A stretch of DNA of 64,000 bases from an uncultured Verrucomicrobiota bacterium (lineage in GTDB: Bacteria > Verrucomicrobiota > Verrucomicrobiia > Chthoniobacterales > JACTMZ01): NCBI GenBank assembly GCA_903953565.1, contig CAJBKE010000037.1, forward strand, positions 62,001 through 126,000, read 5' to 3'. The notes beneath the pieces were generated by a model that was not told where the DNA came from, did not search any database, and saw nothing but the letters and a program-made list of their open reading frames with translations. The position numbers were made by a program, and so were the translations under genes. Of the stretch, positions 52,510-64,000 are shown piece by piece. Numbering within the stretch: the first letter of the stretch is position 1; each line of letters opens with the position of its first letter.

Positions 52510-52550
52510 TCTCATATCAGAGTTCCGAAGGTTTCAGACTTTGATCGGCA

Positions 52551-52659
52551 GGTGGATCGCGATGTCCCCATCGCGATTTACTGATCGAAATATCGCGCCG
52601 AACCGGAGTCCCGCAGGCGCGGGACGGAGATGGCCCATAGGCAAACGGCGCGATCCACC
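52551..52659. repeat. Double-hairpin palindromic repeat, family 1, long form
   Basis: A 109-bp copy between the convergent hmuV and phosphofructokinase genes. The ATCGCGATG arm is normal. The G/C arm is enlarged by about 45 bp containing a nested hairpin (CCCGCAGGCGCGGG) and TGGCCCATAGGCAAA. The same insert in reverse complement is in the copy at 61784, with two mismatches. Confidence 0.87.
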
Positions 52660-52692
52660 TACCAAACACCAAAAAACTTTGGGTGTTTCGTA

Positions 52693-58793: not shown

Positions 58794-59451
58794 AATAGGC
58801 TTGGTTTTCGGCCGGCGGGCGATCGAGTTTGCGGTAGAAGCGCAGGGCTTCGATCGGGCTGCCGAAATCGGAGAGGAAATACAGACCGTCTTTGTAGCGT
58901 CCTCCCGGATCTCGGATGAGATATTCGTAGCCCTGTTTGCCCACGATGACGACGAAGTGGGTGATGCCGTTCGGGTAGCGCAGGCGCACGATCACCGGAT
59001 TGCCGCGCAGCAAATTCCAATCGATAAGAAAATGCGATCCGTCGGCCTCGTAGACATGTTCGGCCACACCGGGCGGGAACTCCGCCGCCTTTTCCCAATA
59101 AAGCCATCCGCCTTTGGTGAAACCGCCGTTCTTTTTGAGGTAGCTGTTGAGTTCACCCGGATCGACATCCGCGCCGTAGGAAGCCAGCACCATGGCGGCT
59201 GAGGCGACCGCGCAACCTTCCGCGCCGAGCGAGGTCGGTCCGCCGGCCAGAACGTCGCGACCCCAGCGCCGGTCGGCTTGGGCGAAATGCGGCACGTCGT
59301 TGAGCACGGTGCTCGGGAAATAAAGCCCGCCGCTCGGCTCCAGCGGCGTGGCGGTCGCGGTCCATTTTTCGATCCAATGCCAGCCGAGGTAGGAACCGCC
59401 GGCCAGCGCGGAAACGAAAAGGGCGGCAACGATGGCGAGGAAAACCCGCAT
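58789..59451 (-). CDS. C39-like (papain-fold) cysteine peptidase, exported
   Basis: A 220-residue protein with an N-terminal membrane/signal segment (VFLAIVAALFVSALAGGSYL) and a C39_2-type domain. The likely nucleophile is the cysteine of LGAEGCAVASAAMVLASYG, with His in GITHFVVIVGKQG and Asp in YLIRDPGG. Substrate and partners are unknown, as no bacteriocin-type transporter is nearby. The ATG at 59451 was chosen over a TTG at 59460. Its stop codon and last residues lie within a family 2 repeat. Confidence 0.75.
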   Translation of the reverse strand: MRVFLAIVAALFVSALAGGSYLGWHWIEKWTATATPLEPSGGLYFPSTVLNDVPHFAQADRRWGRDVLAGGPTSLGAEGCAVASAAMVLASYGADVDPGELNSYLKKNGGFTKGGWLYWEKAAEFPPGVAEHVYEADGSHFLIDWNLLRGNPVIVRLRYPNGITHFVVIVGKQGYEYLIRDPGGRYKDGLYFLSDFGSPIEALRFYRKLDRPPAENQAYL

Positions 59452-59623
59452 GCCGCTCAAGAAACGCGAAACTGCCCCGCTGCCAAATCATTTCTGCATG
59501 CCGGGCACAATTGGTCGGGCGTAAAGAACGCGGCCGGCGTCCCCAAGAACCGGGTAAAGGGCGGGATTTCGGTTCACCATTCGGGTCGGAATTGCCATCA
59601 TCCGCCTTCCGCCCTCCCGCCCC

Positions 59624-61732
59624 ATGCCCTTCTTCAATCGCCTCAGCATCCAGTCGAAGATGATCTTGCTGCTTCTCGCGGTGAGTCTTGCCTCGATTGC
59701 GGTGATGTCATGGATCGGATACCGCACGGCGCGCGAGGCGCTCATGCAATCCGCGCGCGACCGCTTGCAAGGTGTGCGCGTGGCCAAGACCACCACGCTC
59801 AAGGCCATGCTCGAGTCGCTGCGCGACCAAGTCGTTTCCATTTCCGACAGCAGGGCGGTGATCGAAGGCATGCGCACTTTCCGTGCCGCGCACCGTGAAC
59901 TCGGCGCCGCGGCGCTTTCGCCGGAAGAAAACGCGAAGCTCGATGCGTTCTACCGCGACTACTTCGTGCCCGAGTTGGACAAAAGCGTCGAGGGCACGCC
60001 GGTGATCGAACAATACCTGCCGACACGTCCCGCGGAGCGCTACCTGCAATACCACTACACGGTGGCCAACCCGCACCCCTACGGCGAGAAGCAGAATCTC
60101 AACGAGGCGCCCGGCGACACCACGGCCTACGGCAAGACGCATGCCGACCTGCACAAATTCTTCGCGCGCGCGGTCAAGATCTTCGGCTTCCAGGACATGA
60201 TGCTCATCGATGCCGACACGCTCGATATTGTCTACAGCTACGAGAAGACGACCGAACTCGGAACGAACCTCGAGAACGGTCCCTACGCGAACACGCTTCT
60301 GGGTTCCAAAATCCGATCCATGCGGCAACAGAAAGATCGCGACGATTTCAAGATCGTCGACTTCGAGCCTTACCGCCCGAATCTCGGATTGCCCATGGGT
60401 TTTGCCCTCAGCCCGGTGTTCGACGGGGCGCAAATGATCGGCGTTCTCGCGCTGCAGTTTCCCATCGACAATTTCAACACGGTGCTGACCGGCAATTTCC
60501 AATGGAAAGAGGAGGGGATGGGCGAGACGGGAGAGACCTACCTTGTCGGTCCCGACGGCACGATGCGCAGCCGCTCGCGCTTTATGTATGCGGATCCGGA
60601 TGGATTCATCGATGTGCTGCGCCGCAGCAGCGTGCCATCCAGCGTCGTCGACCAGATAAAGCTGCAGGGCAATGTGCTCTGTACACTGCCCGTGGATTCG
60701 CCCGCGGCCGAAGCCGCGCTCAATGGTCAATCCGGCATCATGGAAACGACCGACTACCGCGGCGAGAAAGTGCTCAGTGCTTATGGTCCGCTCGAGCTCG
60801 ACTCCCTGCGTTGGGGCGTGCTGGCCGAAATGGATCTGGCCGAAGCCGAAGGCCCGGTGCGCGCCTTCGCCCGCCGCGTGGTCATTGCCGCCGCGGCCTT
60901 GGCCGGCATCGTCACACTTGTTGCATTGGTTGTGGCGAACCTTCTCACCCAGCCGCTCCGCCGCCTCGCCGAAGGGGCGCACCGTCTCGGCGCGGGCGAG
61001 ACCGATGTGCGGGTCGACATCAAATCGCAGGACGAATTCGGCGAACTCGCCGCCGTCTTCAACAACATGTCGGCCAGCATCAAATCGCAGAAGGAAAAGC
61101 TCGAGCGGCAGATCCAGGAAAATCAGGAACTGTTGCACAGTATTCTGCCGGCTTCGGCCGTGGCGCAGCGCCGCGAAGGCGACGAGAAAGCCAACCGCGA
61201 ATTCGCCGACGTCAGCGTCCTCTTCGCCGAGATCATCGGCATGGAGGAATTCAGCGCCCGCGCCGGTGAAAGCAAAGCGCTCGCCCTGCTCGGGGATCTC
61301 ATCGCCGCCATCGACGAAGCCGCGGAAAAATCCGGCATCGAGAAAGTCAAAACCATCGGCGGCTCGTATCTCGCCGTCTGCGGATTGTCCGTGCACCGTC
61401 CCGACCACGCGCGCCGCATTGTCCAGTTCGCCCAGGAAATGGTGCGCATCGTCGGACTTTTCAACCGCGACGAGGATGCCGGTCTTTCCGTCGCGGTCGG
61501 CATCAATTCCGGTCCGGTTGTCGGTGGCGTGGTCGGTCGCCGCAAGTTCCTCTATGACTTGTGGGGCGACACCGTGACCATCGCGCGCCGCCTCGCCGGC
61601 GGCGAGGGCGCAGCCATCCGCGTGACTTCCGCCGTGCGCGACCGCGTGGGCGAGCAGTTCGTCCTCCGCGGACCGGTGAAACTCGGCCCCGAAGGAAAAT
61701 CCGGCGGGGAAGCATGGGAAGTGACGAGCTAA
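59624..61732 (+). CDS. Membrane sensor with HAMP and degenerate class III cyclase domain
   Basis: A 702-residue receptor. A transmembrane helix (~14-34) is followed by a large extracytoplasmic double-Cache-like region (~40-415), a second helix (~425-448), HAMP (~450-500, QPLRRLAEGAHRLGAGE), a short coiled coil and a cyclase homology domain (~525-690). Class III cyclases bind metal by two aspartates; here the first position is Glu536 (LFAEIIG) and the second Gly580 (KTIGGSYLAV). The transition-state asparagine is Thr652 (GDTVTIARR), while its arginine is kept. It may therefore be inactive or a signal-binding scaffold, or may act only as a heterodimer. The next genes encode channels. Confidence 0.85.
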   Translation: MPFFNRLSIQSKMILLLLAVSLASIAVMSWIGYRTAREALMQSARDRLQGVRVAKTTTLKAMLESLRDQVVSISDSRAVIEGMRTFRAAHRELGAAALSPEENAKLDAFYRDYFVPELDKSVEGTPVIEQYLPTRPAERYLQYHYTVANPHPYGEKQNLNEAPGDTTAYGKTHADLHKFFARAVKIFGFQDMMLIDADTLDIVYSYEKTTELGTNLENGPYANTLLGSKIRSMRQQKDRDDFKIVDFEPYRPNLGLPMGFALSPVFDGAQMIGVLALQFPIDNFNTVLTGNFQWKEEGMGETGETYLVGPDGTMRSRSRFMYADPDGFIDVLRRSSVPSSVVDQIKLQGNVLCTLPVDSPAAEAALNGQSGIMETTDYRGEKVLSAYGPLELDSLRWGVLAEMDLAEAEGPVRAFARRVVIAAAALAGIVTLVALVVANLLTQPLRRLAEGAHRLGAGETDVRVDIKSQDEFGELAAVFNNMSASIKSQKEKLERQIQENQELLHSILPASAVAQRREGDEKANREFADVSVLFAEIIGMEEFSARAGESKALALLGDLIAAIDEAAEKSGIEKVKTIGGSYLAVCGLSVHRPDHARRIVQFAQEMVRIVGLFNRDEDAGLSVAVGINSGPVVGGVVGRRKFLYDLWGDTVTIARRLAGGEGAAIRVTSAVRDRVGEQFVLRGPVKLGPEGKSGGEAWEVTS

Positions 61733-61783
61733 TCGCCTCGCCTGGCTCATGATCTTTCCGCCCACTTCTTCCGCCAGCAGCAA

Positions 61784-61892
61784 GGTGGATCGCGCCGTTT
61801 GCCTATGGGCCATCTCCGTCCCGCACCTGCGGGACTACGGTTCGGCGCGATTTCTTTGCCCGGAGATCGCGATGCGGAGATCGCGATCCATC
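61784..61892. repeat. Double-hairpin palindromic repeat, family 1, long form
   Basis: A 109-bp copy in the gap between the cyclase-like and MscS genes. It has the enlarged G/C arm (TTTGCCTATGGGCCATCTCC and CCCGCACCTGCGGG) and a second arm altered to ATCGCGATGCGGAGATCGCGAT. The orientation is opposite to the long copy at 52551. Its last bases are only 11 bp before the MscS start. Confidence 0.87.
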
Positions 61893-61903
61893 TCATCTCC
61901 GCT

Positions 61904-63355
61904 ATGAGCGATCTCCTGCCATCTTATCTCACCAATTTCTGGCCGGCCGTTTTTCTCGCGGTCGGTTTTCCGGTGGCGCTTCTCCTTCTCAACGAATCGA
62001 TCGCTCTCTGTCGCCGCCGCGGCCTGCCCGTCGAGCGCACCCTGCGCAGTCTCCGCAATCTCGTTATCCCCGCCGCCGCGCTGCTGGTTTTTATCCGTTT
62101 CGTCCTCGAGTTGCCGAAAGAAAGCACGACATCGCGTCTCGTCGAATCCGCATTCTGGATCCTCCTGCTCTACACACTGCTCGGCGTGGTCAATGATCTT
62201 GTCTTCGGCCGCGGCGAACCCGTCGAGGGACGTCCACGCTGGACCGACAAAGTTCCCAAACTTTTCCGCGATCTCGTCCGCGCCCTCCTCGTGGCGATCG
62301 GCGCAATGGTCGTCTATTCGCAGGTCTGGGGTCACGAGGTTTCCGCCGCGCTGACTGCGCTCGGCCTCGGTTCCATCGTCATCGGTCTCGCGTTGCAGGA
62401 ACCGCTCGGCAACATCGTCTCCGGACTCATGCTCCTCTCCGAGCGCCCACTCAATGTGGGCGATTGGATCCAAGTCGGCGGCGTGCGCGGCCGCGTCATC
62501 GAGATCAACTGGCGCGCGGTGCATATCGAGACGCCCACGCGCGAATTGCAGGTCATTCCCAATGTCGAACTCTACAAGGGAACCTTCGCCAACTTGTCGC
62601 GTCCCACGCCGCTGCGCACCGAGGTGATCGAGATGGGCTTCAGCTACGACGATGCTCCGAACCGCGTGAAAGAAGTGATGCTCGACCTGCTCCGCACCAC
62701 ACCCGGCGTGTTGGCCGACCCGGAACCCCTCGTCCGCACTGCCGCCTACGCCGATTTCTCCATCAATTACCGCCTCATTTTCAGCGTCGAGTCGCAGGCG
62801 CATCTTCCCGATGTGCGCGATGCCGTCATGTCGCGCCTCTGGTATGTGATCAAACGCGAGAACATCACCATTCCGTTCCCCACCGCGCTCGAATACGAAC
62901 CCGGCCAAGATCCGTCCAAGCTGCAGCCGACCGTCGACGATTACCTGCGCGAACATGTGCGCTTCAAGCCGGCGGCCGGGGAGGGCACGAACGCTCCGCA
63001 GCTTGTCTCGTTCGCTGCGGGCGAGACCGTGCAGGGACCGGACCGCGCCTTCGACGGATTCGCTCTTGTTGTTGCCGGTCGCGCCAATCTGCTCGCGAAC
63101 GATGCCGCTGGCCAGGCAGTGCTTATCGGCGAGCTCGGGCCCGGCGAATGTTTCGGAGACAGCGTCACGGCCGGGGGCGCCGCGGAAAAAATTTCCATCG
63201 TGGCGGACGGCGACCTCGAAGTCGTGGTCTTCGCCGACGAAGCGATCAACGATCTCCTCAACAAATCACCCGCCTTGGCCGCGGAAATCGGCGATGCCAT
63301 CGAAGTGCGCCGCCAGGCCGCGCAGGCCATCCGTCGCCGTTCCACCACTGCATGA
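61904..63355 (+). CDS. MscS-family mechanosensitive channel with C-terminal cNMP-binding-like domain
   Basis: A 483-residue membrane protein. About four N-terminal spans lead to the MscS pore and beta domain (GLGSIVIGLALQEPLGNIVSG, LNVGDWIQVGGVRGRVIEI, VIPNVELYKGTFANLSRP). The last ~100 residues resemble a cyclic-nucleotide-binding fold (FAAGETVQGPDRAFDGFALV, GELGPGECFGDSVT). The phosphate-binding cassette lacks the usual FGE...R(S/T)A: it reads FGDSVTAGGAAEKISIVA, so nucleotide binding is doubtful. The family includes cAMP-gated relatives of MscS. The ATG at 61904 follows the repeat; ATGA overlap with the next gene. Confidence 0.87.
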   Translation: MSDLLPSYLTNFWPAVFLAVGFPVALLLLNESIALCRRRGLPVERTLRSLRNLVIPAAALLVFIRFVLELPKESTTSRLVESAFWILLLYTLLGVVNDLVFGRGEPVEGRPRWTDKVPKLFRDLVRALLVAIGAMVVYSQVWGHEVSAALTALGLGSIVIGLALQEPLGNIVSGLMLLSERPLNVGDWIQVGGVRGRVIEINWRAVHIETPTRELQVIPNVELYKGTFANLSRPTPLRTEVIEMGFSYDDAPNRVKEVMLDLLRTTPGVLADPEPLVRTAAYADFSINYRLIFSVESQAHLPDVRDAVMSRLWYVIKRENITIPFPTALEYEPGQDPSKLQPTVDDYLREHVRFKPAAGEGTNAPQLVSFAAGETVQGPDRAFDGFALVVAGRANLLANDAAGQAVLIGELGPGECFGDSVTAGGAAEKISIVADGDLEVVVFADEAINDLLNKSPALAAEIGDAIEVRRQAAQAIRRRSTTA

Positions 63356-64000
63356 AAACCATCATCCCCAAATTCCTCGCGCTGGTCCTGTCCATCCTGT
63401 TCCTTGGCGCCTCCGCATCCCACGCCGCGGAAAAAATCCGGGTGGTGGTCAAACCCGCCGAACCCTTCGCCTTCGAGGAAAACGGCGTGCTCAAAGGCTA
63501 CTCGGTGGATCTCTGGAAAAAGATCGCTGCTGCGTCCGGCTTCGAATTCGAAACCCGCGTGGTTGACACCGTGCCAGAACTGCTCGAAGCCGTGAAAAGC
63601 GGCGCGGCCGATGTCGGTGTCGGTGCGATCAGCATCACGCCCGACCGCGAGAAGCTCATGGATTTTAGTCATCCGTTCTTCAAGTCGGGCCTGCAAGTCA
63701 TGGCCCGCTCGAAAGGTGAAGCCGGTGCCTTCACCGCCTTCCGCGCGTTATGGAATCGCAATGTGGCCGAGGTCGTCGGCGTGTTGCTCCTCGCTGTCTT
63801 CCTCGTGTCGCACGTGCTTTGGATGGTCGAACGCAAGATCAATGCGGAAAGCTTTCCCGAAGGCTATGTGCGCGGCGTGTGGGAATCCGTCTGGTGGTCC
63901 ATCGCCACGCTGATCAGCGGCGGTTGCGAAAACAAAGCGCCGGTCGGTGTGGCGGGACGACTCGTTGCCGTCGTCTGGATGCTTGGCGGGATCGGTCTCA
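63352..64000 (+). CDS. Prokaryotic ionotropic glutamate receptor-like channel, N-terminal part
   Basis: The first 216 residues of a protein that runs off the window. A signal peptide (ALVLSILFLGASASHA) leads to the first lobe of a periplasmic amino-acid-binding domain (IRVVVKPAEPFAFEENGVLKG, GAISITPDREKLMDFSHPFF). A pore module follows (VVGVLLLAVFLVSHVLW, ESVWWSIATLISGGCENKAP, GRLVAVVWMLGG). This is the GluR0 layout, in which the pore interrupts the binding protein. The K+ filter TVGYGD is replaced by SGGCEN (residues 189-194). Ligand and ion are unknown. It is ATGA-coupled to the MscS gene. Confidence 0.8.
   Translation, partial: MKTIIPKFLALVLSILFLGASASHAAEKIRVVVKPAEPFAFEENGVLKGYSVDLWKKIAAASGFEFETRVVDTVPELLEAVKSGAADVGVGAISITPDREKLMDFSHPFFKSGLQVMARSKGEAGAFTAFRALWNRNVAEVVGVLLLAVFLVSHVLWMVERKINAESFPEGYVRGVWESVWWSIATLISGGCENKAPVGVAGRLVAVVWMLGGIGL

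Follow-up and report, generated by a model that had tools for sequence, protein, structure and literature searches.

When a receptor gene with a cyclase domain lies directly in front of a gene for a channel with a CNBD, do the two form a cAMP circuit? The question is raised by the last part of the window, that is, of the whole stretch of 64,000 nucleotides analysed here. The initial annotation had proposed a signalling cluster of three genes at this place, namely a Cache-HAMP-cyclase receptor, an MscS channel with a nucleotide-binding tail, and a ligand-gated channel of the GluR0 kind, which together could couple an external amino acid or solute to ion flux and turgor. According to Pfam and to the reading of the contig, the three genes are real and have the proposed positions and orientation. 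The ATGA overlap between the channel gene and the iGluR gene is also real, and reading along the contig beyond position 64000 completes the third gene. The main features of the region are as follows.

59624-61732, plus strand: dCache-HAMP-class III cyclase receptor of 702 aa (Pfam, AlphaFold2, Foldseek), laid out as TM, dCache-like sensor, TM, HAMP, linker and predicted pseudo-cyclase
60932-61084, plus strand: HAMP domain of the receptor, aa 437-487 (Pfam, 3e-15)
61199-61672, plus strand: predicted pseudo-cyclase domain of the receptor, aa 526-683 (Pfam Guanylate_cyc, PF00211, 2.7e-35)
61783-61893, no strand assigned: MITE-like dispersed repeat of about 111 bp, within the 171-nt gap between receptor and channel genes (61733-61903)
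61904-63355, plus strand: MscS-superfamily channel with a C-terminal CNBD, 483 aa (Pfam, PDB matches, AlphaFold2)
63352-64000 in the window and on to 64434 outside it, plus strand: bacterial iGluR (S1-TM-P-TM-S2), 360 aa in all

The dCache_1 match of the receptor is weak (3.6e-5, below the Pfam cut-off), and the AlphaFold2 model of this protein has a mean pLDDT of 83. The channel comprises an MscS pore and beta domain with a C-terminal CNBD, as indicated by MS_channel_2nd (1.6e-21), MS_channel_3rd and cNMP_binding (7.4e-10) in Pfam, by PDB matches to MscS/YnaI, and by a model with a pLDDT of 81.5. SBP_bac_3, Lig_chan-Glu_bd and Lig_chan are the Pfam domains of the iGluR. A search with PADLOC gave no match that would point to an anti-phage role, and no Rfam match to an RNA element was found in the region.

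In the conserved-neighbourhood search, each of the three proteins was compared with 286 genomes of the class. The full three-gene order was found only in the window genome (G000) and in G257, a member of the same genus, whose proteins are 66% (channel), 68% (iGluR) and 78% (receptor) identical to those of the window. A scan of contigs with the channel added six further loci, one annotated as Akkermansiaceae and five planctomycete, where the channel is immediately preceded by the receptor and has no iGluR behind it. In one planctomycete order, the channel was detected at E <1e-60 in 28 of 297 genomes, where it occurs as two paralogous types. The receptor is directly upstream at all but two of the 32 places fetched from this order; the exceptions are a contig end (L158) and a disrupted channel gene that lacks the first 126 residues (L166). 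The resulting set, drawn mainly from planctomycetes and mostly from draft assemblies, contains 38 receptor-channel rows from 37 distinct loci (L145 and L100 being one locus), and gene order and strand are constant in every row, with the channel immediately downstream of the receptor. The conserved unit is thus the receptor with its MscS-CNBD channel, and the part of the original proposal that included all three genes did not hold.

The pairing is also seen from the side of the receptor. With the receptor as query, full-strength matches in that planctomycete order comprised 32 receptor genes in 27 genomes, and behind each of the 32 comes the channel or, at a contig end, its start or next piece. 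Four weaker matches mainly share the sensor and HAMP; the three that were read (L179, L180 and L181) end in MCP signalling domains and are about 31-33% identical to the window receptor over sensor plus HAMP. Conversely, the receptor is absent near all 48 other MscS-CNBD homologues, with flanks of mostly 1.5 kb examined on each side, and it was not found near the Xenococcus (L104) or myxobacterial (L105) channels. Gene trees of receptor and channel agree almost branch for branch (pairwise distances, r 0.97), so the two genes have been inherited together. In both trees the window clade stands amid planctomycete sequences, a placement which may point to lateral transfer. No plasmid-borne relatives were found in PLSDB at E 1e-30.

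Some observations on individual loci may be recorded here. Frame changes or truncation disrupt two of the channel genes (L103, 4524-4540; L166, 420-1312), which may be assembly errors or pseudogenes. Both paralogous pair types occur together in G470 (L158/L144, with the second pair type cut by the contig end), G502 (L157/L147), G510 (L156/L150) and G450 (L153/L151), and such genomes are useful material for the study of partner specificity.

With regard to the gap between the two genes, the earlier reading had noted repeats in 61733-61903 and had named a promoter there as evidence that the genes are separate. The gap does bear repeats, and these form part of a genome-wide dispersed element. Its ends are 12-nt inverted arms (61783-61794 and 61882-61893); four other long copies, 80-87% identical, and many partial ones occur in the genome, giving about 40 full or partial matches, of which one lies within the window on the minus strand (52550-52660). 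At the paired loci the distance between receptor and channel runs from -4 (an ATGA overlap) to 63 nt, save for 126 nt in L160 and 171 nt in the window. Since the gaps at other loci are short, the repeat that occupies the window gap is best read as a MITE-like insertion. No gene-separating promoter was matched in this gap by a scan of the sigma-70 type, nor anywhere in 59450-63400, which is weak evidence, as such a scan is of little informative value in this kind of bacterium.

The place of the third gene bears on the proposal of a circuit in which amino acids, cNMPs and turgor are linked and the iGluR is essential. Its S1-TM-P-TM-S2 topology and amino-acid-binding Arg (TPDRE motif) agree with a ligand-gated channel of the GluR0 kind, and its ligand domain matches that of a structurally known bacterial iGluR (2pyy, 1.2e-38). 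The pore does not fit that assignment: it carries SGGCEN (63916-63933) where GluR0 has the K+ filter TVGYG, and across the pore the protein matches eukaryotic AMPA receptors. Prokaryotic iGluRs that lack the K+ filter have already been described as Group 2 (Ger et al. 2010, PMC2950845), so the window protein belongs to an already described kind. The three-gene circuit would be in line with a gene order and orientation shared by two species whose proteins are 66-78% identical, and with the ATGA overlap in the window. However, the pair persists at the other 35 loci without an adjoining iGluR, and the iGluR of G293 lies on a different contig from the pair and is only 42% identical. A unit known from two genomes only was set aside, and an indispensable iGluR is considered highly improbable; the iGluR is a lineage-specific addition to the pair, with a non-K+ pore of known prokaryotic type.

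Among the iGluR homologues of the class (L036-L063), non-K+ pore motifs (GGCEN, GGADN, GGCEA, GGMCMN and TGKSNHK) occur beside the canonical TVGYGD, which offers a natural series for the evolution of the pore. In G004, a cyclase and an iGluR are also neighbours; the cyclase is a different, canonical one and the contig layout is unrelated, and this candidate was rejected. In addition, repeat-rich autotransporter-like proteins of >2,500 aa are encoded near the cluster in both three-gene genomes (L003, 12151-19901; L096, 2-8155); one genome has them downstream of the cluster, and in the other they immediately precede the receptor.

Can the conserved pair make and read cAMP, as its domains imply? 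The cyclase domain has the class III fold (Foldseek matches to catalytic domains of class III, TMt 0.7-0.8). Three of its catalytic positions are altered as follows.

61229-61231, plus strand: metal site 1, Glu536 for the canonical Asp (Glu in 30 and Asp in 7 of 37 rows)
61361-61363, plus strand: metal site 2, Gly580 for the canonical Asp (Gly, Ser, Thr or Ala in 38/38 rows, never Asp)
61577-61579, plus strand: transition-state position, Thr652 for Asn (Ala, Thr or Ile in 38/38 rows)

In the same bacterial class, 26 of 26 class III cyclases outside such pairs keep both metal Asps and the transition-state Asn. The transition-state Arg varies across the pair rows (Arg 22, Lys 9, Gly 7) and is kept as Arg656 in the window protein. 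The adenine-specifying residues Lys576 and Asp645 are also present there, and the family has mostly Lys or Arg and Asp at these places, the Asp being kept in 37 of 38 rows, so binding of a nucleotide may persist. Outside these positions the domain shows strong conservation (GxEKV...YLAVCG; FLYDLWG), close pairs give dN/dS values of 0.04-0.19, which denote purifying selection, and mean identity is higher in the cyclase domain (0.62) than in the sensor (0.52). The domain is thus not decaying, because its remaining sequence is conserved under selection; it is predicted to be inactive as a cyclase.

The phosphate-binding cassette of the channel shows a parallel loss. The features concerned are listed below.

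62999-63268, plus strand: CNBD, aa 366-455, with the phosphate cassette FGDSVTAGGAAEKIS
63158-63160, plus strand: cassette Glu replaced by Asp419 (CNBD alignment)
63185-63187, plus strand: cassette Arg replaced by Glu428 (CNBD alignment)

Thirty-six rows (35 distinct) of paired CNBDs could be read and were compared with 48 unpaired homologues. The phosphate-binding Arg occurs in none of the paired CNBDs (Asp 20, Ser 12, Glu 3, Gly 1) and in 45/48 unpaired ones, the cassette Glu in 9/36 versus 48/48, and the Ala two places past the Arg in 0/36 versus 44/48. The region has a dN/dS of 0.04-0.29, again indicative of purifying selection, and the model, which is of moderate confidence, can be superposed over aa 349-483 on CooA, Vfr and CAP, with Z about 13-14 for 121-126 aligned residues. 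The fold is therefore kept and the contact with the cyclic phosphate is not, since the model matches CNBD folds and folds of the CRP type and the phosphate-binding Arg is gone. By these residues, the paired CNBD probably does not read cAMP.

The cNMP link from cyclase to channel that the initial annotation implied is contradicted by these losses on both sides in all readable paired members, and an active cAMP loop was for this reason rejected as the leading reading. It could be rescued if the cyclase used an unusual metal arrangement, or if it were a C2-like half working with a C1-like partner, with the channel still gated by cAMP. In mammalian adenylyl cyclases, the metal Asps come from C1 and the substrate and transition-state residues from C2, which lacks the metal Asps and is inactive as a homodimer, working only with C1 (PMC4174876). 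Among PDB sequences the domain matches adenylate cyclase 9 best, through its C1 half as well as its C2 half, and additional class III cyclases occur in most of the genomes that carry the pair. Against this, a search for class III domains found no other PF00211 domain in the window genome and no second one in G498, and the single domain of the window genome weakens the notion of a half-cyclase that needs C1. The transition-state Asn, the contribution of C2 itself, is moreover lost in all rows, with a variable Arg, and the phosphate-binding Arg is absent from every readable paired CNBD. A canonical loop is accordingly regarded as very unlikely. Judged from these residues, the pair appears to be one that cannot use canonical cAMP chemistry.

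An alternative reading is a change of ligand, in which the cyclase-like domain binds a purine nucleotide without turnover, or the CNBD senses another small molecule, such as a nucleoside; the channel would then read a metabolite rather than a contact with the receptor. The retained adenine Asp (37/38) would be compatible with this. In trypanosomatid PKA, the binding of purine nucleosides accompanies a replaced cassette Arg combined with an additional Glu (PMC10959531), and in 23 of the 36 paired CNBD rows an Asp or Glu stands where the Arg would be. On the other hand, the paired CNBDs have Val, Leu or some other residue where the trypanosome cassette carries its ribose-binding Glu (+2), and a single shared ligand is not obvious because position +9, which is Asp/Glu or Ser, distinguishes the two paired types. 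The strict gene pairing is also not explained by a change of ligand alone, and this alternative is held to be rather unlikely.

Because the residues for making and for binding cAMP are lost, the receptor probably controls the channel in another way, perhaps by direct contact. A dedicated receptor-channel pair that does not use cAMP and acts mainly through contact is the preferred reading, with a probability of roughly 0.5. Briefly, an extracellular ligand or stress would act on the Cache sensor, a type also used in chemotaxis receptors, and the change would pass via the HAMP domain and a coiled linker to the catalytically dead class III cyclase domain. Without producing cAMP, this domain might then regulate the adjacent channel, most likely by touching its cytoplasmic cage or its altered CNBD, and ion efflux or the tension threshold would be set accordingly. 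In the genus of the window, the iGluR added downstream may give this operon a second ion path that is gated by amino acids, which is a guess. That an external solute signal is coupled to ion flux, as originally put forward, is plausible. The contact model has its own difficulties: a dimeric receptor and a heptameric channel differ in symmetry, and loss of residues predicts inactivity but does not prove it, the adenine Asp being kept in 37 of 38 rows. The wider proposal of a widespread complex, in which a pseudo-cyclase and a pseudo-CNBD serve as a protein-contact gate of an MscS-type channel and no second messenger takes part, is tentative, with the odds somewhat against it.

If the preferred reading is true, bacteria possess an MscS channel under ligand control, and a cyclase domain and a CNBD can be reused jointly as a non-catalytic coupling device. 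The pair would also be a compact system for the study of channel gating by pseudo-enzymes. For annotation, the case indicates that the obvious assignment of a cAMP circuit to a cyclase gene beside a cNMP-domain channel gene can fail for a whole family.

Each part of the locus is a member of a known family. The open literature, to which the search was confined, yielded no description of their combination or of a joint loss of cAMP chemistry, and neither such a receptor-channel pair nor bacterial pseudo-cyclases were met with there. The receptor resembles class III cyclase receptors in its fold, HAMP linkage and adenine Asp, and differs from the active enzymes in that its family appears to be conserved as a pseudo-enzyme. 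Like the C2 half of mammalian adenylyl cyclase, its cyclase domain lacks the metal Asps; unlike C2, it has also lost the transition-state Asn, and it has no C1-like partner in the locus or detected in G000. The MCPs L179-L181 have the same Cache-HAMP sensor, and their output is an MCP signalling domain instead of a cyclase-like one. The iGluR shares its S1-TM-P-TM-S2 topology and the ligand Arg in the TPDRE motif with GluR0 and Group 2 (PMC2950845). Its pore resembles that of Group 2 and eukaryotic iGluRs (GGCEN against QGCD in AMPA receptors; PMC2950845), and it differs from GluR0 in lacking the TVGYG K+ filter and in standing in an operon-like array with the receptor-channel pair. In the regulatory subunit of trypanosomatid PKA, the CNB domain likewise has a cassette that is no longer suited to cAMP; nucleoside binding has been shown there, and the extra ribose-binding Glu at +2 of that protein is absent here (PMC10959531). 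Finally, the bCNG channels (Caldwell et al. 2010, PMID 20529663, cited in PMC4560390) have the same domain order of TM helices, MscS pore and beta domain, and C-terminal CNBD, whereas the paired channels have an altered cassette in all readable members, with the Arg lost and the Glu often Asp, and are encoded behind a putative pseudo-cyclase receptor.
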